From: Tachypleus tridentatus
Taxonomy: Eukaryota > Arthropoda > Merostomata > Xiphosura > Limulidae
NCBI RefSeq assembly: GCF_004210375.1
Contig: NC_134833.1
Coordinates: 21,321,396-21,385,395, forward strand
Reading direction: 5' to 3'
Length of the DNA: 64,000 bases
The position numbers were made by a program, and so were the translations under genes. The notes below the pieces were generated by a model. That model did not search any database, was not told the origin of the DNA, and worked only from the letters and a program-made list of their open reading frames with translations. Below, in pieces: positions 24,661 to 62,126 of this stretch. Each line of letters opens with the position of its first letter. Position 1 is the first letter of the stretch.

Positions 24661-24701
24661 ATTGTACATTTCTGACCTGTGCGGTAACACTATAAAGTAC
24701 A

Positions 24702-24970
24702 GGCCAGGCTTGGCCAGGTGGATAAGACACTCGACTCGTAATCCGAAGGTCGCGGGTTCGGATCCCCGTCGCACCAAACATGCTCACACTTTCAACCGTG
24801 GGGGCATTATAATGTGACGATCAATTCCACTGTTCGTTGGCAAAACGAGTAGCCCAAGAGTTGGCGGTGAGTGATGATGACTAGTTGCCTTTCCTCTAGT
24901 CTTACACTGGTAAATTAGGGACGGCTTGCGCAGATAGCCGTCGTGTAACTTTGCGCAAAATTCAAACCAA
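24702..24970 (+). mobile_element. SINE family A, full length
   Basis: Follows directly after the two-module tandem array; intact B box GGGTTCGGATCC. Confidence 0.87.
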
Positions 24971-25091
24971 ACCTAAAGTACTTTTAAACTTAATGACCAG
25001 TATGATAATAGTTAAAGCAATACTGAACCTTACTGCCCAATATAATACCATTTACATCAACAATTATTTTTTAGCTCATAGTCCCATCATT

Positions 25092-25265
25092 TCTTGGCCA
25101 ATTTGAGACCTGATAACACTATGTAACACAAATTTTGTTCCTGGATAGTATGTGTTATTTCTTAATTGTTTATGTTGTAAAAGTACAGAAAATGGCCATT
25201 ATTCCCTTCAAACTTTGCTTTTGTGACCTGGATAATGAAATTTAGAAATTAACCTATTTTCTATG
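25092..25265 (+). repeat. Left inverted-repeat arm of the 25-26.6 kb unit
   Basis: It shares with the complement of the right arm the blocks ATGTAACA, TTGTTCCTGGA, GTGTTATTTC and CAAACTTTGCTTTTGTGACC, in the same order with small indels. Confidence 0.65.
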
Positions 25266-25579
25266 TAAAAACGGGCAAATTTGCACATTTTCATTTACAT
25301 AAGGTCTGAATAAAACAACATATGAATACAAATTTATATATATTTATACTAAAGTTATACAAAGTTGAACAAAATTATTTAGAAGTGAATAGTTTTTCGA
25401 GATTTGCGACTAAGACGTAAACCACTTTCACGTATCAGCCCCCAAATATAGTCTCTGCATTCGACTTTGTCAGACCAAGAACTCTGATCAAGTCATTGAG
25501 GTCTCTTTGGTTGGGGTAGTATGGGTTTCTCTCACCAGCTGCACCTCTGAAATTGTAATCTGGATCTTCAAGGTCTATC

Positions 25580-26226
25580 TCATCTTCTGATTTGTTCCTC
25601 TCTTGGGTACAGGGAGCTCAGGGCAGTGTGGCAGTGGGGCGATGGATAATGGAGGTCCAGATACATGATAACAGATGTATTCTTGCCAGCCCGACATTTG
25701 GAAGTGTCCACCATGCAAAAGTAGCAATTGTTTGAGTGGTCAGTGAGTTCATGCCAAATTCTTGGAATAGATAACTTCATGGCTCTCTTTTCCCTCTGTA
25801 CCATCCTGTAAAAGAGCAAAATAAAATTGTTATTATGAAGAATACATTTATTTCATCCACAACTAATGTGTAAGAGGTTCATGCCAAATATTTTTATGTG
25901 ATACTTTTCTATACTATTGGAAATTAAAAAATTAAAAAGATATTTAAATCTTAAAATGTCTAAAATTTATATAATATAAAATTTTACTATTCAAGCAAGC
26001 AAAATTGTTCGTCTTACCTTCTAGAGTATTTTTTGCAGTGCTCACAGGTAAAATAAGGTGCCCAGGGTTTGTTTTGATCCCTGACAGGCATGCTTAAATA
26101 TGCCTTGTAGGGTTCACACATTTTAGCAGATGCTGTTACAGAGTACTTTTTTGCTCTTGTCTTGATAAATTGACCACATACATAGCAGAATTTGTCTGGA
26201 GAATGATTGCAGCTTCTTGATGCCAT
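25580..26226 (-). pseudogene. Cys-rich (CxxC) repeat-family protein, two exons, frame-broken
   Basis: Exon 1 is 26226-26018 and exon 2 begins at 25805, joined AG|gtaaga ... ttacag|G in frame across a 212-bp intron. The first product half has CYVC at residues 14-17, Cys37, PWAPYFTCEHC ending at 64, and after the intron PRIWHELTDHSNNCYFC ending at 100. The paired cysteines suggest zinc binding. The pattern resembles a repeated arthropod family I know only as uncharacterised. The main frame stops at 25580, but the next frame continues with acidic sequence and ERNPYYPNQRDLNDL to about 25440, so a frameshift near 25600 probably split an originally longer protein. The ATG is the first one below the predicted start site. 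Function is unknown. Confidence 0.55.
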
Positions 26227-26276
26227 CTCTGATAAAATCAGATAAGTCTATGTGTTCACTTAGGCAGCTAGAACTA

Positions 26277-26314
26277 AACTGAAGTAGTGAGTGGTAAACC
26301 CCTGTATATATATA
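26277..26314 (-). promoter_or_regulatory. TATA box and initiator of the Cys-rich gene
   Basis: Minus-strand TATATATATA occupies about 26314-26305, and the arthropod-type initiator TCAGTT lies at 26282-26277, putting +1 at 26280, about 30 bp below the TATA. The resulting 5' UTR is 54 nt and contains no upstream ATG before the start at 26226. Confidence 0.7.
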
Positions 26315-26321
26315 TTATTGT

Positions 26322-26421
26322 GGAGAGTTCTAGAAAAGTCTAAAAGGTTCTTGAAATTTTTCATAAGCTCTACAACATTGTAGAAAGTTCTTGAAAATTC
26401 TTGTAAGTTCGAGAAAATTCT
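26322..26421 (-). promoter_or_regulatory. Heat-shock element cluster
   Basis: From 26382 to 26421 eight contiguous 5-bp units alternate with cores GAA, TTC, GAA, TTC, (GTA), TTC, GAA, TTC; only the fifth is imperfect. Shorter runs lie at 26327-26336 (GTTCTAGAAA) and 26347-26356 (GTTCTTGAAA). Alternating nGAAn units are the binding site of trimeric heat-shock factor. The cluster lies 45-140 bp above the initiator of the Cys-rich gene, as in hsp70-type promoters. Confidence 0.8.
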
Positions 26422-26457
26422 CTATCAGCTACTCAGCACTGAATGTACCTGAAATGT

Positions 26458-26655
26458 TCTGGAAAATGGATAAATTTGAAAATTTCATTACCCAGGTCAC
26501 AAAAGCAAAGTTTGAAGAGAAAAATAGGTGTTTTCCATTTACTTTAGGCATAAGCATTTGGGAAATAACACTTTCTCTCCAGGAACAAGAAAAAGTAAAA
26601 AATTTGTTACATAATGTTATAGTTTCAAAATAAGGAGAGAAAACCTTTGCGTTTA
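26458..26655 (-). repeat. Right inverted-repeat arm of the 25-26.6 kb unit
   Basis: Complementary to the left arm in block order. ORFs on both strands here (26391-26633 and 26429-26683) have no recognisable protein features and are probably chance. Confidence 0.65.
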
Positions 26656-26904
26656 ATGTATCTGACCACGCCCAAAATCTCATAGATTAATTTACTCTAA
26701 TCCTGCCTAAAATAATTTCAGTTTCAGGGTAGACTGGCAGAGATCTTGACGAGTATTAAGAAAAAATCGGGTGTACGCGCACCCCAAGTTTGGTGTTATA
26801 AACATGTAGTTAATAAACAAAGAAGAAAACTCTCAGATACTGATTTATTCTAATCCAACCTAAGTGGAATGTCGCGAATATTAAAGATTTACATTAATTG
26901 TTAA

Positions 26905-27640
26905 AGTATTCAAAATATTAAAGATTTCCTCTTGTTTGTAATACATTATTTGTTAAAGTATTCAAAATATTAAAGATTTACTCTTGTTTGTAACATATTA
27001 ATTGTTAAAGTATTCAAAATATTAAAGATTTACTCTTTTGTAATACATTAATTGTTAAAGTATTCAAAATGTTAAATATTTCCTCTTGTTTGTAACATAT
27101 TATTTGTTAAAGTATTCAAAATATTAAATATATCCTCTTGTTTGTAATATATTAATTGTTAAAGTATTCAAAATATTAAAGATTTACTCTTGTTTGTAAC
27201 ACATTAATTGTTAAAGTATTCAAAATATTAAAGATTTCCTCTTGTTTGTAACATATTAATTGTTAAAGTATTCAAAATATTAAATATTTACTCTTGTTTG
27301 TAATACATTAATTGTTAAAGTATTCAAAATATTAAAGATTTCCCCTTGTTTGTAACATATTAATTGTTAAAGTATTCAAAATATTAAAGATTTACTCTTG
27401 TTTGTAACACATTAATTGCTAAAGTATTCAAAATATTAAAGATTTCCTCTTGTTTGTAACATATTAATTGTTAAAGTATTCAAAATATTAAATATTTCCT
27501 CTTGTTTGTGATACATTAATTGTTAAAGTATTCAAAATATTAAAGATTTCCTCTTATTTGTAATACATTAATTGTTAAAGTATTCAAAATGTTAAATATT
27601 TCCTCTTGTTTGTGATACATTAATTGTTAAAATATTCAAA
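26905..27640. repeat. Minisatellite, 52 bp, about 14 copies
   Basis: Unit contains ATTAATTGTTAAAGTATTCA, AAATATTAAAGATTTCCTCT and TGTTTGTAACAT. Starts 250 bp outside the right inverted-repeat arm. Confidence 0.92.
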
Positions 27641-27686
27641 ACACAAAGTGAGATCTATTTCTAGGTCTACAAGAAGCTGTTATTTT

Positions 27687-27797
27687 GAAGTTAAGCACAA
27701 AGCTACACAATGAAGTACCTGTGCTCTGTTCATCACGGGTATCGAAACCCGGATTCTAGCGTTATACGCCCGAAGACATACTGGTGTGCCACAACTA
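27687..27797 (-). mobile_element. SINE family B
   Basis: AGCACAAAGCTACACAATG ... CACGGGTATCGAAACCCGG. Confidence 0.72.
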
Positions 27798-28199: not shown

Positions 28200-28322
28200 T
28201 ATTGTTTTGAGTTTCGCACAAAGTTACACAATGGGCTACTTGTGCTCTGCCCACCACGGGTATCGAAACCTGGTTTTTAGCGTTGGAATTCCGCAGACAT
28301 ACCGCTGAGCCACTGGGGGCTT
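28200..28322 (-). mobile_element. SINE family B
   Basis: GTGCTCTGCCCACCACGGG ... CCGCTGAGCCACTGG, one of the better preserved copies. Confidence 0.75.
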
Positions 28323-28429
28323 ATTATATATATTTATTTCTCTATTGATTTTATTTATAATAATTAATAGAATGTTTAGTTATACCAGCTTTTAAATGTA
28401 TACACTCATTTCTTGTAAAAAAATCTCTT

Positions 28430-29570
28430 TCAAAACATACTTTCAATAAGTGTATTAAGTTATTTGTAATGTAATTTTTCGTTCAAAACACAGTTTTAGT
28501 AAGTGTATTAAGTTATTTGTAATGTAATTTTTCGTTCAAAACACAGTTTCAGTAAGTGTATTAAGTTATTTGTAATGTAATTTTTCGTTCAAAACACAGT
28601 TTCAGTAAGTGTATTAAGTTATTTGTAATGTAATTTTTCGTTCAAAACACAGTTTCAGTAAGTGTAAGTTATTTGTAATGTAATTTTTCGTTCAAAACAC
28701 ATTTCAGTAATGTATTAAGTTATTTTATTTTTCGTTCAAAACACAGTTTCAGTAAGTGTATTAAGTTATTTGTAATGTAATTTTTCGTTCAAAACACAGT
28801 TTCAGTAAGTGTATTAAGTTATTTGTAATGTTATTTTTCGTTCAAAACACATTTTCAATAAGTGTATTAAGTTATTTGTAATGTTATTTTCGTTCAAAAC
28901 ACACTTTCAATAAGTGTATTAAGTTATTTGTAATATTATTTTTTGTTCAAAACACACTTTCAATAAGTGTATTAAGTTATTTGTAACGTTATTTTTCGTT
29001 CAAAACACACTTTCAATAAGTGTATTAAGTTATTTGTAATGTTATTTTTCGTTCAAAACACACTTTCAATAAGTGTATTAAGTTATTTGTAATGTTATTT
29101 TTCGTTCAAAACATATCTTCAGTAGATGTATTAAGTTATTTGTAATGTTATTTTTCGTTCAAAACACACTTTCAATAAGTGTATTAAGTTATTTGTAATG
29201 TTATTTTTCGTTCAAAACATATCTTCAGTAGTTGTATTAAGTTATTTGTAATGTTATTTTTCGTTCAAAACATATCTTCAGTAGTTGTATTAAGTTATTT
29301 GTAATGTTATTTTTCGTTCAAAACATATCTTCAGTAGATGTATTAAGTTATTTGTAATGTTATTTTTCGTTCAAAACATATCTTCAGTAGATGTATTAAG
29401 TTATTTGTAATGTTATTTTTCGTTCAAAACATATCTTCAGTAGATGTATTAAGTTATTTGTAATGTTATTTTTCGTTCAAAACATATCTTCGGTAGTTGT
29501 ATTAAGTTATTTGTAATGTTATTTTTCGTTCAAAACATATCTTCAGTAGATGTATTAAGTTATTTGTAAT
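28430..29570. repeat. Minisatellite, 53 bp, about 21 copies
   Basis: Unit contains TTCGTTCAAAACACAGTTTC and GTATTAAGTTATTTGTAATG. Three blocks of subtypes follow each other: CACAGTTTCAGTAAG, CACACTTTCAATAAG, CATATCTTCAGTAGA. Confidence 0.93.
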
Positions 29571-29604
29571 ACTCAAACTAAACATCCTAGTCAGTTTTTG
29601 TCCC

Positions 29605-29728
29605 CACCCCTAATAGCTCAACAATATGTCTGCAGACTTACAACACTAGAAACCGGGTTTTGATACTCATGGTGGACAGACCACAGAAAGCCCATCGTGT
29701 AAGTTTATACTTAACTTAAAACAAACAA
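29605..29728 (+). mobile_element. SINE family B
   Basis: CTAATAGCTCAACAATATG ... ACTCATGGTGGACAGACC. Confidence 0.68.
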
Positions 29729-32673: not shown

Positions 32674-32994
32674 ACATCATTTAGTGCTTCTACCAGAATC
32701 ACTACGTTCTGTAAACACTGAAATATTTCATGCAATATTTTCTGACAGTTATTTACACTTGACTTTATAACGGACAAAACTAAGTTATTATGAATATAAT
32801 GCAATATGTGGAACCTTCTGGTTGCAAAAGATATAAAAATGATCATAATATAACTTGAGTGTATAATACAATTCCATGTAAATTATGAAAACTTGAATTT
32901 GAACAAATATTTATTTATTATGTTCAAAATTATTTGCTTTATTTGCACTGAAATTTCAATTTATTGTTGACAAATAGTGCCTTTAATCTGAACA

Positions 32995-35900
32995 TAGCTT
33001 CAAGTTGAATATCGCGGTATGTATATAACTTGATGTCAGCTTGAAGTCGGATATCGTATTACCTGTATAACTTGAACAAAGTAAGCTTCAAGTAGAACAT
33101 TAAGGATAGCTATATAACTTGAGCTCAGCTTGAAGTCGGATATCGTAGTACCTGTATAACTTGAACAAAGTAAGCTTCAAGTAGAACATTAAGGATAGCT
33201 ATATAACTTGATGTCAGCTTGAAGTCGGATATCGTAGTACCTGTATAACTTGAACAAAGTAAGCTTCAAGTAGAACATCACGGTAGCTATATAACTTGAG
33301 CTGAGCTTGAAGTCGGATATCGTAGTACCTGTATAACTTGAACAAAGTAAGCTTCAAGTAGAACATTAAGGATAGCTATATAACTTGAGCTGAGCTTGAA
33401 GTCGGATATCGTAGTACCTGTATAACTTGAACAAAGTAAGCTTCAAGTAGAACATCACGGTAGCTATGTAACTTGAGCTGAGCTTGAAGTCGGATATCGT
33501 AGTACCTGTATAACTTGAACAAAGTAAGCTTCAAGTAGAACATCACGGTAGCTATATAACTTGATGTCAGCTTGAAGTCGGATATCGTAGTACCTGTATA
33601 ACTTGAACAAAGTAAGCTTCAAGTAGAACATCACGGTAGCTATATAACTTGAGCTGAGCTTGAAGTCGGATATCGTAGTACCTGTATAACTTGAACAAAG
33701 TAAGCTTCAAGTAGAACATTAAGGATAGCTATATAACTTGAGCTGAGCTTGAAGTCGGATATCGTAGTACCTGTATAACTTGAACAAAGTAAGCTTCAAG
33801 TAGAACATCACGGTAGCTATGTAACTTGAGCTGAGCTTGACGTCGGATATCGTAGTACCTGTATAACTTGAACAAAGTAAGCTTCAAGTAGAACATCACG
33901 GTAGCTATATAACTTGATGTCAGCTTGAAGTCGGATATCGTAGTACCTGTATAACTTGAACAAAGTAAGCTTCAAGTAGAACATTAAGGATAGCTATATA
34001 ACTTGATGTCAGCTTGAAGTCGGATATCGTAGTACCTGTATAACTTGAACAAAGTAAGCTTCAAGTAGAACATTAAGGATAGCTATATAACTTGAGCTGA
34101 GCTTGAAGTCGGATATCGTAGTACCTGTATAACTTGAACAAAGTAAGCTTCAAGTAGAACATTAAGGATAGCTATATACCTTGATGTCAGCTTGAAGTCG
34201 GATATCGTAGTACCTGTATAACTTGAACAAAGTAAGCTTCAAGTAGAACATCACGGTAGCTATATAACTTGATGTCAGCTTGAAGTCAGATATCGTAGTA
34301 CCTGTATAACTTGAACAAAGTAAGCTTCAAGTAGAACATCACGGTAGCTATATAACTCGATGTCAGCTTGAAGTCGGATATCGTAGTACCTGTATAACTT
34401 GAACAAAGTAAGCTTCAAGTAGAACATTAAGGATAGCTATATAACTTGAGTTCAGCTTGAAGTCGGATATCGTAGTACCTGTATAACTTGAACAAAGTAA
34501 GCTTCAAGTAGAACATCACGGTAGCTATATAACTTGAGCTGAGCTTGAAGTCGGATATCGTAGTACCTGTATAACTTGAACAAAGTAAGCTTCAAGTAGA
34601 ACATTAAGGATAGCTATATAACTTGATGTCAGCTTGAAGTCGGATATCGTAGTACCTGTATAACTTGAACAAAGTAAGCTTCAAGTAGAACATTAAGGAT
34701 AGCTATATAACTTGAGCTCAGCTTGAAGTCGGATATCGTATTACCCGTATAACTTGAACAAAGTAAGCTTCAAGTTGAACATTAAGGATAGCTATATAAC
34801 TTGATGTCAGCTTGAAGTCGGATATCGTAGTACCTGTATAACTTGAACAAAGTAAGCTTCAAGTAGAACATTAAGGATAGCTATATAACTTGAGCTCAGC
34901 TTGAAGTCGGATATCGTAGTACCTGTATAACTTGAACAAAGTAAGCTTCAAGTAGAACATTAAGGATAGCTATATACCTTGATGTCAGCTTGAAGTCGGA
35001 TATCGTAGTACCTGTATAACTTGAACAAAGTAAGCTTCAAGTAGAACATTAAGGATAGCTATATAACTTGATGTCAGCTTGAAGTCGGATATCGTAGTAC
35101 CTGTATAACTTAAACAAAGTAAGCTGCAAGTAGAACATTAAGGATAGCTATATAACTTGATGTCAGCTTGAAGTCGGATATCGTAGTACCTGTATAACTT
35201 GAACAAAGTAAGCTGCAAGTAGAACATTAAGGATAGCTATATAACTTGAGCTCAGCTTGAAGTCGGATATCGTAGTACCTGTATAACTTGAACAAAGCAA
35301 GCTTCAAGTAAAACATTAAGGATAGCTATATAACTTGATGTCAGCTTGAAGTCGGATATCGTAGTACCTGTATAACTTGAACAAAGCAAGCTTCAAGTAG
35401 AACATTAAGGATAGCTATATAACTTGATGTCAGCTTGAAGTCGGATATCGTAGTACCTGTATAACTTGAACAAAGTAAGCTGCAAGTAGAACATTAAGGA
35501 TAGCTATATAACTTGATGTCAGCTTGAAGTCGGATATCGTAGTACCTGTATAACTTGAACAAAGTAATCTGCAAGTAGAACATTAAGGATAGCTATATAA
35601 CTTGAGCTCAGCTTGAAGTCGGATATCGTAGTACCTGTATAACTTGAACAAAGTAAGCTGCAAGTAGAACATTAAGGATAGCTATATAACTTGATGTCAG
35701 CTTGAAGTCGGATATCGTAGTACCTGTATAACTTGAACAAAGTAAGCTGCAAGTAGAACATTAAGGATAGCTATATAACTTGATGTCAGCTTGAAGTCGG
35801 ATATCGTAGTACCTGTATAACTTGAACAAAGTAAGCTTCAAGTTGAACATTAAGGATAGCTATATAACTTGATGTCAGCTTGAAGTCGGATATCGTAGTA

Positions 35901-36097
35901 CCTGTATAACTTGAACAAAGTAAGCTTCAAGTAGAACATTAAGGATAGCTATATAACTTGATGTCAGCTTGAAGTCGGATATCGTAGTACCTGTATAACT
36001 TGAACAAAGTAAGCTTCAAGTAGAACATTAAGGATAGCTATATAACTTGATGTCAGCTTGAAGTCGGATATCGTAGTACCTGTATAACTTGAACAAA
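32995..36097. repeat. Satellite, 89 bp, about 35 copies
   Basis: Unit contains AACTTGAACAAAGTAAGCTT, CAAGTAGAACATTAAGGATA, GCTATATAACTTGATGTCAG and CTTGAAGTCGGATATCGTAG. Two linked variant sites occur: ATTAAGGAT or ATCACGGT, and TTGATGTCAG or TTGAGCTGAG. CTTGAAG and CTTCAAG make each unit self-complementary. Confidence 0.96.
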
Positions 36098-36222
36098 GTA
36101 GTCCAAGAGTTGGCGGTGGGTGGTGCTGACTAGCTGCCTTCCCTCTAGTCTTACACTGATAAATTATGGACGGCTAGCGCAGATAGCCCTCGAGCAGCTT
36201 TGAGCGAAATTCAAAAATAAAC
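36097..36222 (+). mobile_element. SINE family A, 3' half
   Basis: Begins inside the body at GTCCAAGAGTTGGCGG exactly where the 89-bp satellite stops. Confidence 0.85.
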
Positions 36223-49912: not shown

Positions 49913-50224
49913 TGCAACAAATGAAGTCTTAAAATTGATTCCGTTTTCTCCATTTTTAGATAAAGAAGAAAATCCAAAAGGGATCCCGCGGCCCAGGTCC
50001 AGCGTGATCCAGGTAGAAGTCAAGCGTTAATAACTTCGCATTATATAATACCAAAATAATGTCTCACACGACATCGTAGTGTATTCAAAGCACGGGCCAA
50101 TCCCGTTTTCGTTGTTTGTACTGTTCACTGTTCTAGGGTCTTCATTCAAGCCGACTGTCATTCTGAATTTCAGTTTACTTTATTATTTTATGTACAAATT
50201 ATTGAAATAACTACCTAAACTATT

Positions 50225-52005
50225 TGTTGTTATTTTTATATGTAAGACAGTATGTACGATAGCTCCACTTTAATCAGTTGTTATTCTTATATGTAAGAGA
50301 GTATGTACAATAGCTTCACTCTAATCTGTTGCTATTCTTATATGTAAGATAGTATGTACAATAGCTTCACTCTAATCTGTTGTTACTCTTGTATGTAAGA
50401 CAGTATGTACAATAGCTTCACTCTAATCTGTTGCTATTCTTATGTGTAAGACAGTATGTACAATAGCTTCACTCTAATCTGTTGTTATTCTTATGTGTAA
50501 GACAGTATGTACAATAGCTTCACTCTAATCTGTTGTTATTCTTATGTGTAAGATAGTATGTACAATAGCTTCACTTTAATCTGTTGTTACTCTTATATGT
50601 AAGACAGTATGTACAATAGCTTCACTCTAATCTGTTGCTATTCTTATGTGTAAGACAGTATGTACAATAGCTTCACTCTAATCTGTTGTTATTCTTATGT
50701 GTAAGACAGTATGTACAATAGCTTCACTCTAATCTGTTGCTATTCTTATGTGTAAGACAGTATGTACAATAGCTTCACTCTAATTTGTTGTTATTCTTAT
50801 GTGTAAGACAGTATGTACAATAGCTTCACTCTAATCTGTTGGTATTCTTATATGTAAGACAGTATGTACAATAGCTTCACTCTAATTTGTTGCTATTCTT
50901 ATGTGTAAGACAGTACGTACAATAGCTTCACTCTAATCTGTTGTTATTCTTATGTGTAAGACAGTATGTACAATAGCTTCACTCTAATTTGTTATTCTAT
51001 TGTGTAAGACAGTATGTACAATAGCTTTACTCTAATTTGTTGTTATTCTTATGTGTAAGACAGTATGTACAATAGCTTCACTCTAATCTGTTGTTATTCT
51101 TATATGTAAGACAGTATGTACAATAGCTTCACTCTAATTTGTTGTTACTCTTATGTGTAAGACAGTATGCACAATAGCTTCACTCTAATCTGTTGTTATT
51201 CTTATGTGTAAGACAATATGTACAATAGCTTCACTCTAATCTGTTGTTATTCTCATGTGTAAGACAGTATGTACAATAGCTTCACTCTAATTTGTTGTTA
51301 TTCTCATGTGTAAGACAGTATGTACAACAGCTTCACTCTAATTTGTTGTTATTCTTATGTGTAAGACAGTATGTACAACAGCTTCACTCTAATTTGTTGT
51401 TATTCTTATGTGTAAGACAGTATGTACAATAGCTTCACTCCAATTTGTTGTTGTTCTTATGTGTAAGACAGTATGTACAATAGCTTCACTCTAATCTGTT
51501 GTTATTCTTATGTGTAAGACAGTATGTACAATAGCTTCACTCTAATCTGTTGTTATTCTTATGTGTAAGACAGTATGTACAATAGCTTTACTCTAATCTG
51601 TTGTTATTCTTATATGTAAAACAGTATGTACAATAGCTTCACTCTAATTTGTTGTTATTCTTATGTGTAAGACAGTATGTACAATAGCTTTACTCTAATT
51701 TGTTGTTATTCTTATGTGTAAGACAGTATGTACAATAGCTTCACTCTAATTTGTTGTTATTCTTATGTGTAAGACAGTATGTACAATAGCTTCACTCTAA
51801 TTTGTTATTCTATTGTGTAAGACAGTATGTACAATAGCTTCACTCTAATTTGTTATTCTATTGTGTAAGACAGTATGTACAATAGCTTCACTCTAATTTG
51901 TTGTTATTCTTATGTGTAAGACAATATGTACAACAGCTTTACTCTAATTTGTTGTTATTCTTATGTGTAAGACAGTATGTACAATAGCTTCACTCTAATC
52001 TGTAT
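50225..52005. repeat. Minisatellite, 51 bp, about 35 copies
   Basis: Unit contains TAATCTGTTGTTATTCTTAT, GTGTAAGACAGTATGTACAA and TAGCTTCACTC. A few copies share a 3-bp deletion (GTTATTCTATTG). Confidence 0.95.
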
Positions 52006-53481: not shown

Positions 53482-56400
53482 CTATAGAGAACCAGAAAAA
53501 TTAATTGGTGATTTAAATTATTTTGTAACTTCTTCATTTCAAAAAAAATGTTTCTGGTTATATAGCTTCTAGTAAAGTATTCGCCACAATAATATTTGTT
53601 TTAGAATTTCGCGAAAAGCTCCACGAGATCTATTTTCGATAGTCGTCCATAATTTAGCAGTGTAAGACTAAAGGAAAGGCAGCTAGTCATTACTACCCAC
53701 CGCCAACTCTTGGGCTACTCTTTTACCAACGAATGGTGGGATTGATGGTATATTATAACGTCCCCACGGCTGAAAGGGAGAGCAAGTTTGGTGTGACGGG
53801 GATTCGGACCTGCGACCCTCAGATTACGAGTCGAGCGCCCCTAACCACCTGGCCATCCCAGGCCTCGCCAAAAGAAGATTTACAATAGTTCACATTAGTG
53901 AACTAGCTGGGATATTAGTGAAGCCATAACTCAACCAACAATTTAAATCCAATCAAGCTTAGGGTATTGATACACTATTTCTCAACCAATAATTTAGATC
54001 CAATCAAGCTTAGGGTATTGATTACATTATTACTCAACCAATAATTTAGATCCAATCAAGCTTAGGGTATTGATTACACTATTACTCAACCAATAATTCA
54101 GATCCAATCAAGCTTAGAGTATTGATTACATTATTACTCAACCAATAATTTAGATCTAATCAAGCTTAGGGTATTGATTACACTATTACTCAACCAATAA
54201 TTTAGATCCAATCAAGCTTAAGGTATTGATTACACTATTACTCAACCAATAATTTAGATCCAATCAAGCTTAGGGTATTGATTACACTATTACTCAACCA
54301 ATAATTCAGATCCAATCAAGCTTAAGGTATTGATTACACTATTACTCAACCAATAATTCAGATCCAATCAAGTTTAGGGTATTGATTACACTATTACTCA
54401 AACAATAATTTAGATCCAATCAAGTTTAGGTTATTGATTACACTATTACTCAACCAATAATTTAGATCCAATCAAGCTTAAGGTACTGATTACACTATTA
54501 CTCAACCAATAATTCAGATCCAATCAAGCTTAGGGTATTGATTACACTATTACTCAACCAATAAATCAGATCCAATCAAACTTAGGGTATTGATTACACT
54601 ATTACTCAACAAATAATTTAGATCCAACCAAAATTTACGTTTTCCTGTTGGTCTGATTTTGATGAAACATATATATTCGTAAATCTTTGCTGATTATTAT
54701 TTGGAAAATAACATACGCTATACAGATAGTAGTAATATCATATTTATCAGCATATACATATGTGCTAGCAACTAATACTGTAGCAGAAACACCGCTCTAC
54801 AGGCGATTTTTTGTACTAATAATTACTAGTCATAGCATTCACATCTCATTCAAAATTTGAAAAAAAATGAACACGTACAGTCATGGTGAAAGCCATGTTC
54901 TTGTTGTGAGGAGTGATTTTTATTGAAAACTGTGTTCTGTGATAAAAAATAGTGTTGCACGTACCATCGTTACTTTTTAATTGTTTGAATCTTAAATACC
55001 CAAATTGTGAAATTTTGTTTGATGACACAGGAGTTTTGGTTACATACATAGATATTGACATACACTATACTCCCATTACAGCAAGATTATGTCTAGTAAT
55101 ATAGAATACTGACAACATAGAGAGTTGAATACACTATATTAAAGCGGTCTGGAATATGTAATTATAAAGTACGTAATAACCTTAGTTGATATGAAGTCTT
55201 AGTGGAACGAAGTGTATCAGAACTACGTTTACACTGTTTAGGTTTGATTAGGGGGTGTGATGTGACCGAAAATTACTTGCTTTTGTAAAGGGTATATAAC
55301 ATACCCTCCCCAATGTTAAACATTCATACACTTAGATCATAAAGGTTGTTCAGTTTCTGTAGTGCCACCTAGTAACATACAATAACCTCCTTACCTTGAC
55401 TATAGCATGTTGAACAGCTTATACGTGCTATGAGGTTAAATTCTGTACAAATATTGAAACAGATTTATTTGCTTTCCTTGCATTTCCCATGAAACTACTA
55501 GTAGCCAATCTATCGCTAATCATCCCTAATCTTTAACTGACAGATTACAGAGAAGGCAGCTAGTCATCAAACTAGTATTATTGATTGGTGAATTGTTACA
55601 GTGAAAGAAACTAGTATTATTGATTAGTGAATTGTTACAGTGAAAGAAACTAGTATTACTGATTCGTGAATTGTTACAGTGAAAGAAACTAGTATTATTG
55701 ATTAGTGAATTGTTACAGTGAAAGAAACTAGTATTACTGATTCGTGAATTGTTACAGTGAAAGAAACTAGTATTATTGATTAGTGAATTGTTACAGTGAA
55801 AGAAACTAGTATTACTGATTCGTGAATTGTTACAGTGAAAGAAACTAGTATTATTGATTAGTGAATTGTTACAGTGAAAGAAACTAGTATTATTGATTGG
55901 TGAATTGTTACAGTGAAAGAAACTAGTATTATTGATTAGTGAATTGTTACAGTGAAAGAAACTAGTATTACTGATTAGTGAATTGTTACAGTGAAAGAAA
56001 CTAGTATTACTGATTCGTGAATTGTTACAGTGAAAGAAACTAGTATTATTGATTAGTGAATTGTTACAGTGAAAGAAACTAGTATTGTTGAACAGAGAAC
56101 TGTTACAGTGAAAGAAACTACTATTGTTGAACAGAGAACCAACAAATAGTGGGATTGCCCGTTACTTATAACGACCCCACGACTGAAAAGGCGAACATGT
56201 TTGATGTGATGGGGATTTAAGCCTGTGACCCTCAGATTACGAGTCGAGCATCTTAACCACTTGGTCATGCTGAAGTTACTTATGGGGGAATACACATCTA
56301 AAACGTGAAGCACGTTTTCCCACATCTCTGTTATTTGTTTAGTACAATCTTAGTAGAGAAAGATATAAACCTATGTCCTGTGATTTGAATCTCTAACTCA

Positions 56401-59400: not shown

Positions 59401-62126
59401 TTTGTGACTTATGTCATGGGAATTAACGGTAATAAGTAAAGGCTTCAAAACAGAAGAACAAGGTTTAGTGCAAACAAAACTAAACGTAATACTAGAGGAA
59501 TAAAAATGAGAAATGTTGTCTTCTGTTATTCCTCGACAAGCTTAGCTGAAGACACATTGAAACTTTAGGACTCCTTGATTGGGTTAACTAACAGCAGATT
59601 TATAAAAGAAAACTACAACAGCGACATTATAAGTCAATTAAATGAAAATAGGTTGAAAAATATGACGACAGGTCGTTAGCGCCTAGTATAGATTATACAA
59701 GTGTTGGTTACTTAAGTACATGAAGAAAACAATTCACTGAAACCATAGAAGCTTGTTTGATTTGATTTTGAATTTCGCGCAAAGCTACTCGAGGGCTATC
59801 TACGCTCGCCGTCCCTAATTTTTCGGTGTAAGACTAGAGGGAAGGCAGCTAGTCATCACCACCAACCGCCAACTCTTGGGCTACTCTTTTACCAACGAAT
59901 AGTGGGATTGACCGTAACTTTATAACGCCCCCACGGCTGAAAAGGAGAGCATATTTGGCGCGAAGGGGATGCAAACTCACGACTCTCAAATTACGAGTCA
60001 CACGACTTTAACCTACCTGGCCATGCCGGGCCGAAACCAAAGAAGACATTAATGCTAGAAAACAGTAAAATTCTTGATAGAAAGAAATAATTTGTGCAGG
60101 TAATAAACTTATGTGGAATTGTGGGATTTAGTCCTGTACATTCTTTTAAAATAAAACCTTTTTTTATTTAGCGTTTCGTAAATTCATTTCGAAATTGTAC
60201 GGGTTGTTATATAGAATAATTAATTTCGAAGGCGAGGCGACAAGTTTCATGTTTATTTATCAGTAAAGTCTCAATATGGAATGAAATGAGATGTTTCTCT
60301 TTAAAATGAATTAATAAAGAAGTAGGTAAATTGAATGGAACCTAATTTTAATCATGTAGTGAAAGTAAACACGTGAAAAGGGAAAAGAAATCTAAATAGC
60401 AGTTACAAACAAAGTCGTTTGATAACAAATATTTCTACGAAGAAATAGGAAAATTCCAATAAAAAATACTTAGAAATGGATAAAACTAGTCACTTCAGCA
60501 CCAATAATAACCTGAAACAACAACAATCTACAAGTGCTTTAGTTGGGATGTCTATTTTTACAGAAGACCTGATGTCCAAATACAATTTCAAATGTATCTG
60601 GACATACACTATTTATAGGTGAACGTACTTACAATTCTGTGATCTACCGAAATATACATCTTATTGATACGACCCTGTATTTTCCTCAATAGGAAACACT
60701 TTCCATTTCACTTCCTAGTTGATACAGATTAATGGTTATTAAATTATTATATCTTTACCATTGTATTTTTCTCCATAGGAAACACTTTCCTTTTCACTTC
60801 CTAGTTGATACAAATTAATGGTTATTAGATTATTATATCTTTACCATTGTATTTTTCTCCATAGGAAACACTTTCCATTTCACTTCCTAGTTGATACAGA
60901 TTAATGATTATTAAATTATTATATCTTTACCATTGTCTTTTTCTCCATAGGAAACACTTTCCTTTTCACTTCCTAGTTGATACAAACTAATGGTTATTAG
61001 ATTATTATATCTTTGCCATTGTATTTTTCTCCATAGGAAACACTTTCCATTTCACTTCCTAGTTGATACAAACTAATGGTTATTAGATTATTATATCTTT
61101 GCCATTGTATTTTTCTCCATAGGAAACACTTTCCATTTCACTTCCTAGTTGATACAGATTAATGATTATTAAATTATTATATCTTTACCATTGTCTTTTT
61201 CTCCATAGGAAACACTTTCCTTTTCACTTCCTAGTTGATACAAACTAATGGTTATTATATTATTATATCTTTGCCATTGTATTTTTCTCCATAGGAAACA
61301 CTTTCCATTTCACTTCCTAGTTGATACAGATTAATGATTATTAAATTATTATATCTTTACCATTGTCTTTTTCTCCATAGGAAACACTTTCCTTTTCACT
61401 TCCTAGTTGATACAAACTAATGGTTATTAGATTATTATATCTTTGCCATTGTATTTTTCTCCATAGGAAACACTTTCCATTTCACTTCCTAGTTGATACA
61501 AACTAATGGTTATTAGATTATTATATCTTTGCCATTGTATTTTTCTCCATAGGAAACACTTTCCATTTCACTTCCTAGTTGATACAGATTAATGATTATT
61601 AAATTATTATATCTTTACCATTGTTTTTTTCTCCATAGGAAACACTTTCCTTTTCACTTCCTAGTTGATACAAACTAATGGTTATTATATTATTATATCT
61701 TTGCCATTGTATTTTTCTCCATAGAAAACACTTTCCATTTCACTTCCTAGTTGATACAGATTAATGATTATTAAATTATTATATCTTTACCATTGTCTTT
61801 TTCTCAATAGGAAACATCTTCCATTAGATGAGTCCATTCCTTATGATATGATTGACGATGCGTGTCATGTTGTTTTTCTGACCTGTCTGGACATACGCTC
61901 TGCATAGGTGAACATGCCCACAAACCTGGCAAACATATTTTTCTGAGAAAAAAAAACAACACACACACGCATAATATTCTTATGTTTAATTTTACGACCA
62001 ACTACAGTAATATATGATCTAAAAATATATATTCCTCATTACTCACTTGCCATGGAAATTCGCCATATAAGGCTTCTTGACCTCCAATGATACGGTTCTG
62101 AGGTTTTGCTGTTGGTCGTCCACAAG
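53326..62126 (-). CDS. Serine protease 2, trypsin-like (five exons found, first exon uncertain)
   Basis: Exons are 62126-62047, 58903-58818, 57582-57296, 56559-56402 and 53481-53326, with GT..AG ends and phases 0,2,1,0 that match protease 1; the upstream join is phase 1. The order is: [17 protein letters not shown] activation site, [16 protein letters not shown] with the catalytic Asp, [29 protein letters not shown] and a final stop. Position 189 is Asp (LKDAC) and position 226 is Gly (QPGIY), so cleavage after Arg/Lys is expected. The last exon is 156 nt in both genes. The signal-peptide exon is not secure and may lie near 63142-63190 or outside the window. A SINE fragment and a protease-like readthrough sit just after the exon 4 donor, so an inactive or alternatively spliced state is possible. 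Confidence 0.85.
53596..53864 (-). mobile_element. SINE family A, full length
   Basis: Inside protease 2's last intron, about 115 bp above the Ser exon. Confidence 0.87.
53930..54630. repeat. Minisatellite, 52 bp, about 13 copies
   Basis: Unit contains ACTCAACCAATAATTTAGAT and CCAATCAAGCTTAGGGTATT; protease 2's last intron. Confidence 0.94.
54640..55489. other. Protease 2 last intron, unique part
   Basis: The 71-codon minus ORF 54846-55061 has no support as an exon. Confidence 0.4.
55490..55570 (-). mobile_element. SINE family A, old fragment
   Basis: Degenerate tail half (AATCATCCCTAATCTTTAAC, GAGAAGGCAGCTAGTCATCA) at the edge of the 39-bp array. Confidence 0.55.
55568..56130. repeat. Minisatellite, 39 bp, about 14 copies
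   Basis: Unit GAAACTAGTATTATTGATTA + GTGAATTGTTACAGTGAAA; ends against a SINE A half, 270 bp from protease 2 exon 5. Confidence 0.94.
56138..56272 (-). mobile_element. SINE family A, head half
   Basis: Starts at ACCAACAAATAGTGGGATTG directly after the 39-bp array and runs to the head. Confidence 0.8.
56402..56559 (-). CDS. Protease 2 exon with Asp189
   Basis: The acceptor is atcaattag (phase 1) and the donor GTG|gtgagt (phase 0). It codes [16 protein letters not shown], then [17 protein letters not shown]. The Asp before Ala-Cys is the specificity residue 189; Val stands where Gln192 is usual. It is too short and too interrupted outside the splice sites to show as a long ORF. Confidence 0.86.
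56898..57010 (-). pseudogene. Decayed second copy of a protease Asp exon
   Basis: On the minus strand this reads LHIATLLE, then, after a stop/frame slip, [13 protein letters not shown], ending at a possible donor G|gtgctt in phase 1. This matches the DIALL...CVATGWG layout of S1 Asp exons, with His in place of the catalytic Asp and missing sequence between the two blocks. It lies between protease 2 exons 4 and 5. Confidence 0.5.
57177..57243 (-). mobile_element. SINE family A tail fragment in protease 2 intron 4
   Basis: TTTTGAATTTCGCGCCAAG to CGTCCCTCATTTAGTAA. It begins exactly where protease-like coding sequence downstream of the exon 4 donor ends. Confidence 0.75.
57296..57582 (-). CDS. 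Protease 2 catalytic-Asp exon
   Basis: The acceptor is cgatttttgtag, phase 2. It codes [23 protein letters not shown] with the catalytic Asp, LPICLPP and [12 protein letters not shown]. The donor A|gtaagg is phase 1, the same place and phase as in protease 1. The open frame continues beyond the donor to 57201 with protease-like residues before it runs into a SINE fragment. Confidence 0.88.
58005..58105 (+). mobile_element. SINE family B, old
   Basis: CTGGGGTGGACAGAGCTCAG and TATGTAGCTTTGAGC; followed by an inverted copy. Confidence 0.5.
58110..58215 (-). mobile_element. SINE family B
   Basis: TTATGTGTGCTCTGACATC ... ACTGCAGAGTCATC. Confidence 0.55.
58325..58410 (-). mobile_element. SINE family C, old
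   Basis: GGAAGCGAACCTAGGATTTT and TAAACTTACCATTACCCCA. Confidence 0.5.
58445..58545. repeat. Dispersed repeat, copy of 14355-14470
   Basis: Shares CTGTTGTCCCTAATTT and GATCAGA with the other copy. Confidence 0.5.
58697..58790 (+). mobile_element. SINE family C with head deletion
   Basis: CCCCGCTAGTGCAGTGGTA joins directly to GTTCGATTCCACTCGGTGG, skipping the anticodon-like region. Confidence 0.7.
58818..58903 (-). CDS. Protease 2 catalytic-His exon
   Basis: The acceptor is tgttttttag and the donor gtaagt, phase 0 to 2. It codes [19 protein letters not shown], with the catalytic His. At 86 nt it is shorter than the protease 1 counterpart (107 nt) because the loop before CGG is shorter. Confidence 0.9.
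59115..59383 (+). mobile_element. SINE family A, full length
   Basis: Nearly consensus; the 85-codon minus-strand ORF across its head is not a gene. In protease 2's second intron. Confidence 0.88.
59764..60032 (-). mobile_element. SINE family A, full length
   Basis: Opposite orientation to the copy at 59115, 380 bp away, in the same intron. Confidence 0.86.
60690..61815. repeat. Minisatellite, 86 bp, about 13 copies, two alternating subtypes
   Basis: Unit contains AGGAAACACTTTCCATTTCA, CTTCCTAGTTGATACA and TTATTATATCTTTACCATTG. Subtype 1 has CAGATTAATGATTATTAAAT, subtype 2 CAAACTAATGGTTATTAGAT; they partly alternate. In the protease 2 intron above the His exon. Confidence 0.94.
62047..62126 (-). 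CDS. Protease 2 activation-site exon
   Basis: The acceptor is aaactttgcag and the donor gtgagt. It enters in phase 1 (one base needed from upstream) and leaves in phase 0. It codes CGRPTAKPQ then [17 protein letters not shown]. Cleavage is predicted after the Arg before IIGG; the Cys near the start would tether the light chain. Confidence 0.88.

Follow-up and report, generated by a model that had tools for sequence, protein, structure and literature searches.

The window, i.e., the whole stretch of 64,000 nucleotides of Tachypleus tridentatus DNA analyzed here, harbors a decayed copy of a DNA transposon of about 1.5 kb with long terminal inverted repeats, to which we refer as Fam1. The promoter that is the subject of this study belongs to this copy, and the features of both are collected in Table 1. 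Alignments with 39 other copies mostly stop at 26616-26627 on the right and mostly begin at 25111-25120 on the left, where that end is present. The two arms pair at 83-84% in three pieces, which are 74, 40 and 24 nt long. Together with the high copy number, these terminal inverted repeats are as expected of a cut-and-paste transposon, and they speak against a Helitron, an element defined by a Rep-helicase and the lack of terminal inverted repeats. For the target-site duplication, the best fits in 23 Fam1 copies are 2-3 bp long and of AT/TWA type, inseparable from the inverted repeat itself.

Table 1. Features of the Fam1 copy and its promoter (window coordinates).
Feature	Position	Strand	Evidence
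Fam1 DNA transposon copy, short form	25113..26620	-	39-copy alignments; inverted-repeat arms
Left terminal inverted repeat	25113..25261	+	pieces 25113-25136, 25135-25174 and 25188-25261, 83-84% complementary to the right arm
Right terminal inverted repeat	26462..26620	-	inverted-repeat arms
Probable second coding block, disrupted in the window copy	25580..25819	-	ORF list; comparison with longer copies
Cys-rich exon 1 (MASRSC...) with a splice-donor-like GTAAG directly behind it	26018..26226	-	ORF list; putative splice site read from the sequence
54-nt leader without ATG	26227..26280	-	copy comparison
Initiator-like TCAGTT, A+1 at 26280 (putative start)	26277..26282	-	sequence
TATA box	26305..26314	-	sequence
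Footprint of the 100-bp, 20-unit majority array, of which the window keeps 7/8 and 4/6 perfect units	26322..26421	-	column majority of 40 copies
Run of 8 alternating heat-shock element units, 7 of them perfect	26382..26421	-	sequence and shuffles

In the longer Fam1 copies, the coding sequence runs on from the second block. Ten of the 39 other copies contain an extra 0.9-1.0 kb, approximately, at about window position 25455, and the window copy is without this roughly 1-kb stretch of coding sequence. Two further copies, L045 and L047, align as the same short form as the window copy, which may therefore represent a non-autonomous subfamily. In all seven longer copies that were read, the coding sequence is interrupted. 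The long copies contain sequence that, judged by eye, is DDE-looking, and the Fam1 protein is probably a transposase. The pieces of the Fam1 protein searched against Pfam, among them a set of five, gave no match near a cut-off, the one piece searched against PDB gave no match, and the fold prediction was unusable (pLDDT 36.9). The search of viral contigs revealed no confirmed relatives of exon 1. Beside one Fam1 copy (L035:3937-4155), we observed a distant relative of the Fam1 protein with 38% identity over 73 aa and one internal stop, so the genome holds more than one family of Fam1-type proteins.

Upstream of exon 1, the first-pass annotation had described a heat-shock-type promoter, and each of its parts was found in place. 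Read on the minus strand, which is the gene strand, the sequence from 26421 to 26382 is AGAAT TTTCT CGAAC TTACA AGAAT TTTCA AGAAC TTTCT, i.e., the announced eight contiguous 5-bp units with seven perfect ones. A second run of six units, four of them perfect, is located at 26327-26356. The TATA box, claimed to lie about 30 bp above TCAGTT, is TATATATATA, 34 bp above the A of this initiator-like motif, and the leader down to the ATG at 26226 indeed reads without an upstream ATG. The order on the gene strand is thus array, TATA, initiator-like motif, and start codon, as in a heat-shock promoter, where the array is located shortly upstream of the TATA box and initiator of the gene. The claim that such a run is unlikely by chance was borne out as well: When the 130-bp region was shuffled 20,000 times with its dinucleotides preserved, not one version contained seven perfect units in a single phased run, the maximum being four. 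Along this line, the 12 best phased runs listed for the window include none outside the Fam1 element with more than two perfect units.

The window contains other repeats as well. A short interspersed repeat of about 270 bp (24700-24972) has matches of approximately 71-89% in the flanks of many Fam1 loci. There are also many tandem arrays, whose units measure 39-89 bp, at 28317-29663, 32929-36156, 50074-51936, 53815-54790, 55452-56231, and 60590-61921, and a further one, with a 52-bp unit, at 26779-27745 close beside the transposon. ARAGORN reported no tRNA gene in the 64-kb window.

The first-pass annotation had proposed a comparison with the promoters of other copies. For this purpose, the genome (2.17 Gb in 205 contigs) was searched with the window element as a DNA query that included the promoter. 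Of 3,165 candidates, the best 40 were scored, and the 39 besides the window copy were compared with it, so that copies were chosen by similarity to the window. The same genome gave 19 matches to the protein family Coagulin (best E 1.5e-25), which is not known outside horseshoe crabs, and 14 prokaryote control genomes gave none; the animal is thus most likely a horseshoe crab by this marker, too. Four pairs are, by eye, likely segmental duplicates (L010/L015, L017/L029, L019/L020, and L036/L042), and hence about 35 of the copies are independent. The array recurs in each of the 39 other copies, whose best phased run holds 4-16 perfect units, so that the refuting outcome named by the first-pass annotation, copies devoid of the run, did not arise in this sample. 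The column majority of the 40 copies is an unbroken array of 100 bp. Its 20 alternating units share a single phase, and 16 of them are perfect; the four imperfect ones have one mismatch each and are all TTC-type. This majority array ends 7 bp above the TATA box, and none of 20,000 shuffles matched it. The window copy, with its two remnant runs, belongs to the more decayed ones. A count of eight units is thus correct for the window copy and an undercount for the family. Median divergence from the majority is 4.8%, and that of the window copy is 6.1%.

The downstream parts of the promoter are likewise shared between copies. The initiator TCAGTTTAG is exact in 28 of the 40 Fam1 copies. The distance between TATA box and initiator is 32-34 in 19 of the 27 copies in which both were found, and 21-38 in the other eight. 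All 18 copies with an exact initiator and an exact start have a leader of 54 nt. More diverged copies (L048, L052, L055, L065, and L066, 70-83% to the window copy), all picked for having an array, carry it at the same place. Among those fetched for strong arrays, its length is 10 units in L048, 12 in L055, and about 26 in L052; length thus changes in steps of even unit numbers, and the alternation is kept. L066, at 70% to the window, has two runs with seven of eight and one with four of four perfect units, with a 49-bp step that breaks the phase; its array is again located above a TATA box and a start codon.

At the genome level, the count of heat-shock element runs proposed by the first-pass annotation revealed a strong excess. 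Perfect four-unit arrays occur 4,059 times, compared with 223 for the same pattern read backwards, and six-unit arrays 218 times, compared with none. A 16-base signature of the Fam1 array, GAATTTTCNNGAACTTTC, has 2,483 sites (1,240 + 1,243; controls 3 and 0). Set against the 4,059 four-unit arrays, this number indicates that most strong arrays bear the Fam1 signature, a comparison made by signature counts. The Fam1 start-codon context has 2,653 sites with at most two mismatches, and its reversed control none.

From these start sites, a sample was drawn without regard to the array. It consists of the 31 exact Fam1 start sites among the matches listed, all of which lie within the first 77.85 Mb of contig C1. 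The exact signature is located 87-201 bp upstream on the same strand in 19 of the 31, with no occurrence on the opposite strand and none downstream, and the chance of finding it beside a start is about 0.00017 per site. The other 12 start sites are without the exact signature, which decay could explain. In the first 28.45 Mb of C1, nine of 14 starts have a generic four-unit array beside them among the 50 array sites listed, and the remaining five have none nearby among these sites. Conversely, most of the 100 signature sites listed have no exact Fam1 start adjoining. Both samples favor well-kept copies, since the 40 aligned copies had to resemble the window and the 31 starts had to match exactly.

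Arrays of the Fam1 type with the same or similar sequences form clusters at C2:8.667-8.741 Mb, C2:55.65-55.74 Mb, and C1:13.1-14.6 Mb, one piece of each of which was read. These clusters are possibly local duplications that carry the transposon. The two clusters on C2 (8.67 and 55.66 Mb) had been considered as HSP70/HSP20 gene clusters; such genes were found elsewhere, and the pieces fetched at both are Fam1. The signature sites at C1:13.1-14.6 Mb, which lack an exact Fam1 start in their vicinity, had been considered as non-Fam1, and the one place tested turned out to be Fam1 as well, in a diverged copy at 70% to the window copy with a doubled array, a TATA box and an altered start context. 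A third repeat family, suggested by two identical four-unit sequences (GAACGTTCTTGAAATTTC), was discarded on finding three genome sites.

These data bear on a neutral origin of the array, as a minisatellite in which an A+T-rich unit of 20 bp was expanded by slippage and resembles heat-shock elements in look. The majority array does consist of five 20-bp repeats, it is rich in A+T, the number of its units differs from copy to copy (10, 12, 20, or about 26), and in one diverged copy it is doubled at the phase-breaking 49-bp step. The backwards pattern, however, has equal composition and yields the low control counts given above for both four and six units. Furthermore, the repeats within the majority array differ less at the GAA/TTC cores than at the n positions: With a period of 10, at 4/60 core compared with 13/40 n positions (p 0.001), and with a period of 20, at 4/60 compared with 8/40 (p 0.06). 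We take this difference as a small-sample hint of selection on the cores in the active Fam1 ancestor, for which the majority array stands. The regularity of the array as such partly reflects duplication, given its tandem structure with a 20-bp repeat. Slippage would explain the tandem form, yet neither the heat-shock element register, nor the place above the TATA box, nor the recurrence in the piggyBac family described below. As the accessible part of a study on Brassicaceae reports that the heat-responsive element of ONSEN arose by duplication of a proto-element (PMC5059998), a tandem structure is no argument against function. We consider the minisatellite explanation very unlikely.

Selection is a different matter for the present Fam1 copies. 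Between copies, core positions have changed at 126 of 2,335 and n positions at 64 of 1,555 (p 0.08), so that cores change slightly more. They are not better conserved than the n positions, and hence no selection is seen on the copies that exist today.

A second family was found among the longest arrays. Fifteen six-unit loci were fetched, three of which are Fam1, 11 belong to one other repeat, and one (L054) to neither family. In the last case, a perfect six-unit array at L054:1501-1528 is followed by several degenerate TTC/GAA dyads, with TATAA about 38 bp away. The copies of the second repeat are mostly 95-98% alike, which indicates that the family is young. The one copy tested, L049, encodes a piggyBac transposase (DDE_Tnp_1_7, PF13843, E 5.6e-59, 200.6 bits against a cut-off of 22.4), which speaks against a Helitron for the second family, too. 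In eight of the 11 copies TTAA precedes CACTCC at the 5' end, and in the other three that end is outside the stretch viewed. With its DDE_Tnp_1_7 transposase and TTAA at the visible 5' ends, the family resembles known piggyBac elements; it differs from them by its heat-shock element promoter. The reading frame is open over all 480 codons fetched in one of six copies, and the others stop earlier.

The promoter array of these piggyBac elements has eight of nine perfect units in eight of the 11 copies and seven of eight in the other three; in L049 seven perfect units follow one another directly. The distance from the end of the last perfect unit down to TATATATA is 13 bp, or 8 bp if the final unit with one mismatch is counted. 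In the six of 11 copies in which the pattern matched, the ATG follows 41 bp after the first base of CCTATATA. The order of parts, i.e., array, TATA, and start codon, is therefore the same as in Fam1. At least three contiguous alternating nGAAn units, by which a heat-shock element is recognized, are present in the window copy, in the Fam1 majority and in L049. The piggyBac array motif has 112 forward and 113 reverse matches in the genome (control 0), which correspond to about 113 places and hence to about half of the 218 six-unit arrays. In the search with the Fam1 element, the sole stretch in common with piggyBac is 47-52 bp long at 78-79% and lies within the array, in five copies. As the shared stretch is confined to the array, the latter may have passed from one family to the other.

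The host provides a reference for this layout. An hsp70 gene with an open frame of 639 codons is located at C8:132865747 (L063). Its promoter, the one hsp70 promoter read, contains GTTCG AGAAA CTTCG AGAAA, with all four units perfect, at a distance of 12 bp above TATAAATA; another run, of three units, is set apart from it further upstream. As in the transposons, a GAA/TTC array is followed shortly downstream by a TATA box; in contrast to them, the gene is a host gene and its array beside the TATA box, with four perfect units, is shorter. Two clusters of tandem hsp70 genes, with a spacing of about 8.8 kb from gene to gene, were seen at C8:132.81-132.87 Mb and 133.77-133.79 Mb. The genome also encodes a gene with the DNA-binding domain of heat-shock factor, HSF (E 6e-22).

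Subterminal repeats that are bound by the transposase are known in other DNA transposons, and the Fam1 array, which is repetitive and adjoins the terminal inverted repeat, might serve its own transposase in this way during transposition, resembling heat-shock elements by chance. Such a role predicts arrays at both ends. The opposite Fam1 end, however, has no run of at least three perfect units in any of the 33 copies, out of 39, where that end was found. The motif, moreover, follows the heat-shock element pattern in register directly above the TATA box, an unrelated piggyBac has an array as well, and the host hsp70 gene has the same layout. Thus, we regard transposase binding as very unlikely.

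In our view, the array is very probably the heat-shock promoter of the cut-and-paste transposon's own gene, which probably encodes its transposase, and we read the piggyBac array likewise as a probable heat-inducible promoter of that element's gene. To this extent, the reading of the first-pass annotation is supported as far as sequence can carry it. We infer that HSF would bind the Fam1 array, that the gene would be induced by heat, and that transcription would start at the initiator-like motif below it. The contiguous alternating GAA/TTC units would serve as docking sites for HSF trimers upon heat, several of which could sit side by side on an array of 20 units. Bound HSF would then drive transcription from the downstream TATA box and initiator into the transposon gene, so that proteotoxic stress would bring about bursts of transposase.

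As for the Fam1 copy in the window, it is a relic. The first-pass annotation had suggested that the gene "is, or was" stress-inducible. The past tense fits, since about 1 kb of coding sequence is missing, the array is decayed and the cores are no more conserved than the spacers; for the same reasons the present tense does not hold for this copy. Heat control looks like a past state for Fam1 as a whole, too, given the divergence of its copies, the cores that change as fast as the n positions, and the interruption of all seven longer copies.

A broader reading is plausible and offered tentatively, namely that two unrelated cut-and-paste families of one horseshoe crab lineage, perhaps independently, came under host heat-shock control, that their transposition was licensed by heat, and that most of the strong HSF sites in this genome stem from the two together and outnumber those of the host. 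It might also be asked whether the arrays are mainly regulatory elements of the host, whose spread rewired nearby host genes, the control of the transposon being secondary. Thousands of dispersed arrays would offer the material, and Helitron-borne heat-shock elements act in this manner in Caenorhabditis, according to the part of the study available (PMC6927752). Here, however, the arrays are located at the element's own promoter, and their cores decay as fast as the spacers. Host rewiring as their main role is therefore most improbable to us, and we retain the promoter of the transposon's own gene as the preferred explanation.

Heat-induced transposition is an old idea for which, to our knowledge, few clear cases exist in animals. 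DIRS-1 of Dictyostelium has heat-shock promoter activity. The closest parallel is Helitron1_CE of C. elegans, whose transposase gene F33H12.6 is up-regulated by heat and has 14 heat-shock elements in its promoter (Garrigues et al. 2019, PMC6927752). In the available text of that study, Helitrons hold almost two-thirds of the heat-shock elements of the C. elegans genome, and no high-density clusters are described outside Helitrons, nor in the other scanned bilaterians with annotated Helitrons. Fam1 shares with Helitron1_CE that a DNA transposon has many heat-shock elements in the promoter of its, in our case probable, transposase gene. The two cases differ in that Helitron1_CE is a rolling-circle element, whereas we find an element with terminal inverted repeats and a piggyBac; in that heat induction was demonstrated there and is predicted here; and in that dense clusters exist here outside Helitrons.

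In plants, Brassicaceae COPIA elements have recurrently gained heat-responsive elements in several families, as stated in the accessible part of PMC5059998. ONSEN/COPIA78 and related COPIA elements resemble Fam1 in their clustered nGAAn motifs within the element's promoter. In contrast, they are LTR retrotransposons of plants with three to six motifs (PMC5059998), while Fam1 is an animal DNA transposon whose majority array reaches 16 perfect units. Excerpts of a Cryptococcus study mention putative heat-shock elements in the LTRs of TCN3 and TCN12, and those of a Nematostella preprint cite the Helitron case. The main text of the horseshoe crab genome papers examined contains neither "heat shock" nor "piggyBac", and among open-access titles and abstracts we found no piggyBac, nor any further cut-and-paste transposon, with a heat-shock element array promoter. 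That the own gene of a transposon can be under heat-shock control was known already; new would be its occurrence in two families of DNA transposons that share a genome and are unrelated to each other.

Our findings constitute a sequence-level case of probable heat-controlled transposition for two families of DNA transposons that are unrelated to each other, one of which is young. They run against the impression, given by the available part of the survey in PMC6927752, that dense clusters of heat-shock elements exist only in Helitrons. Two questions become testable, namely whether transposons repeatedly adopt the heat-shock switch of their host, and whether the thousands of HSF sites seeded in this manner may have altered the heat response of the host.
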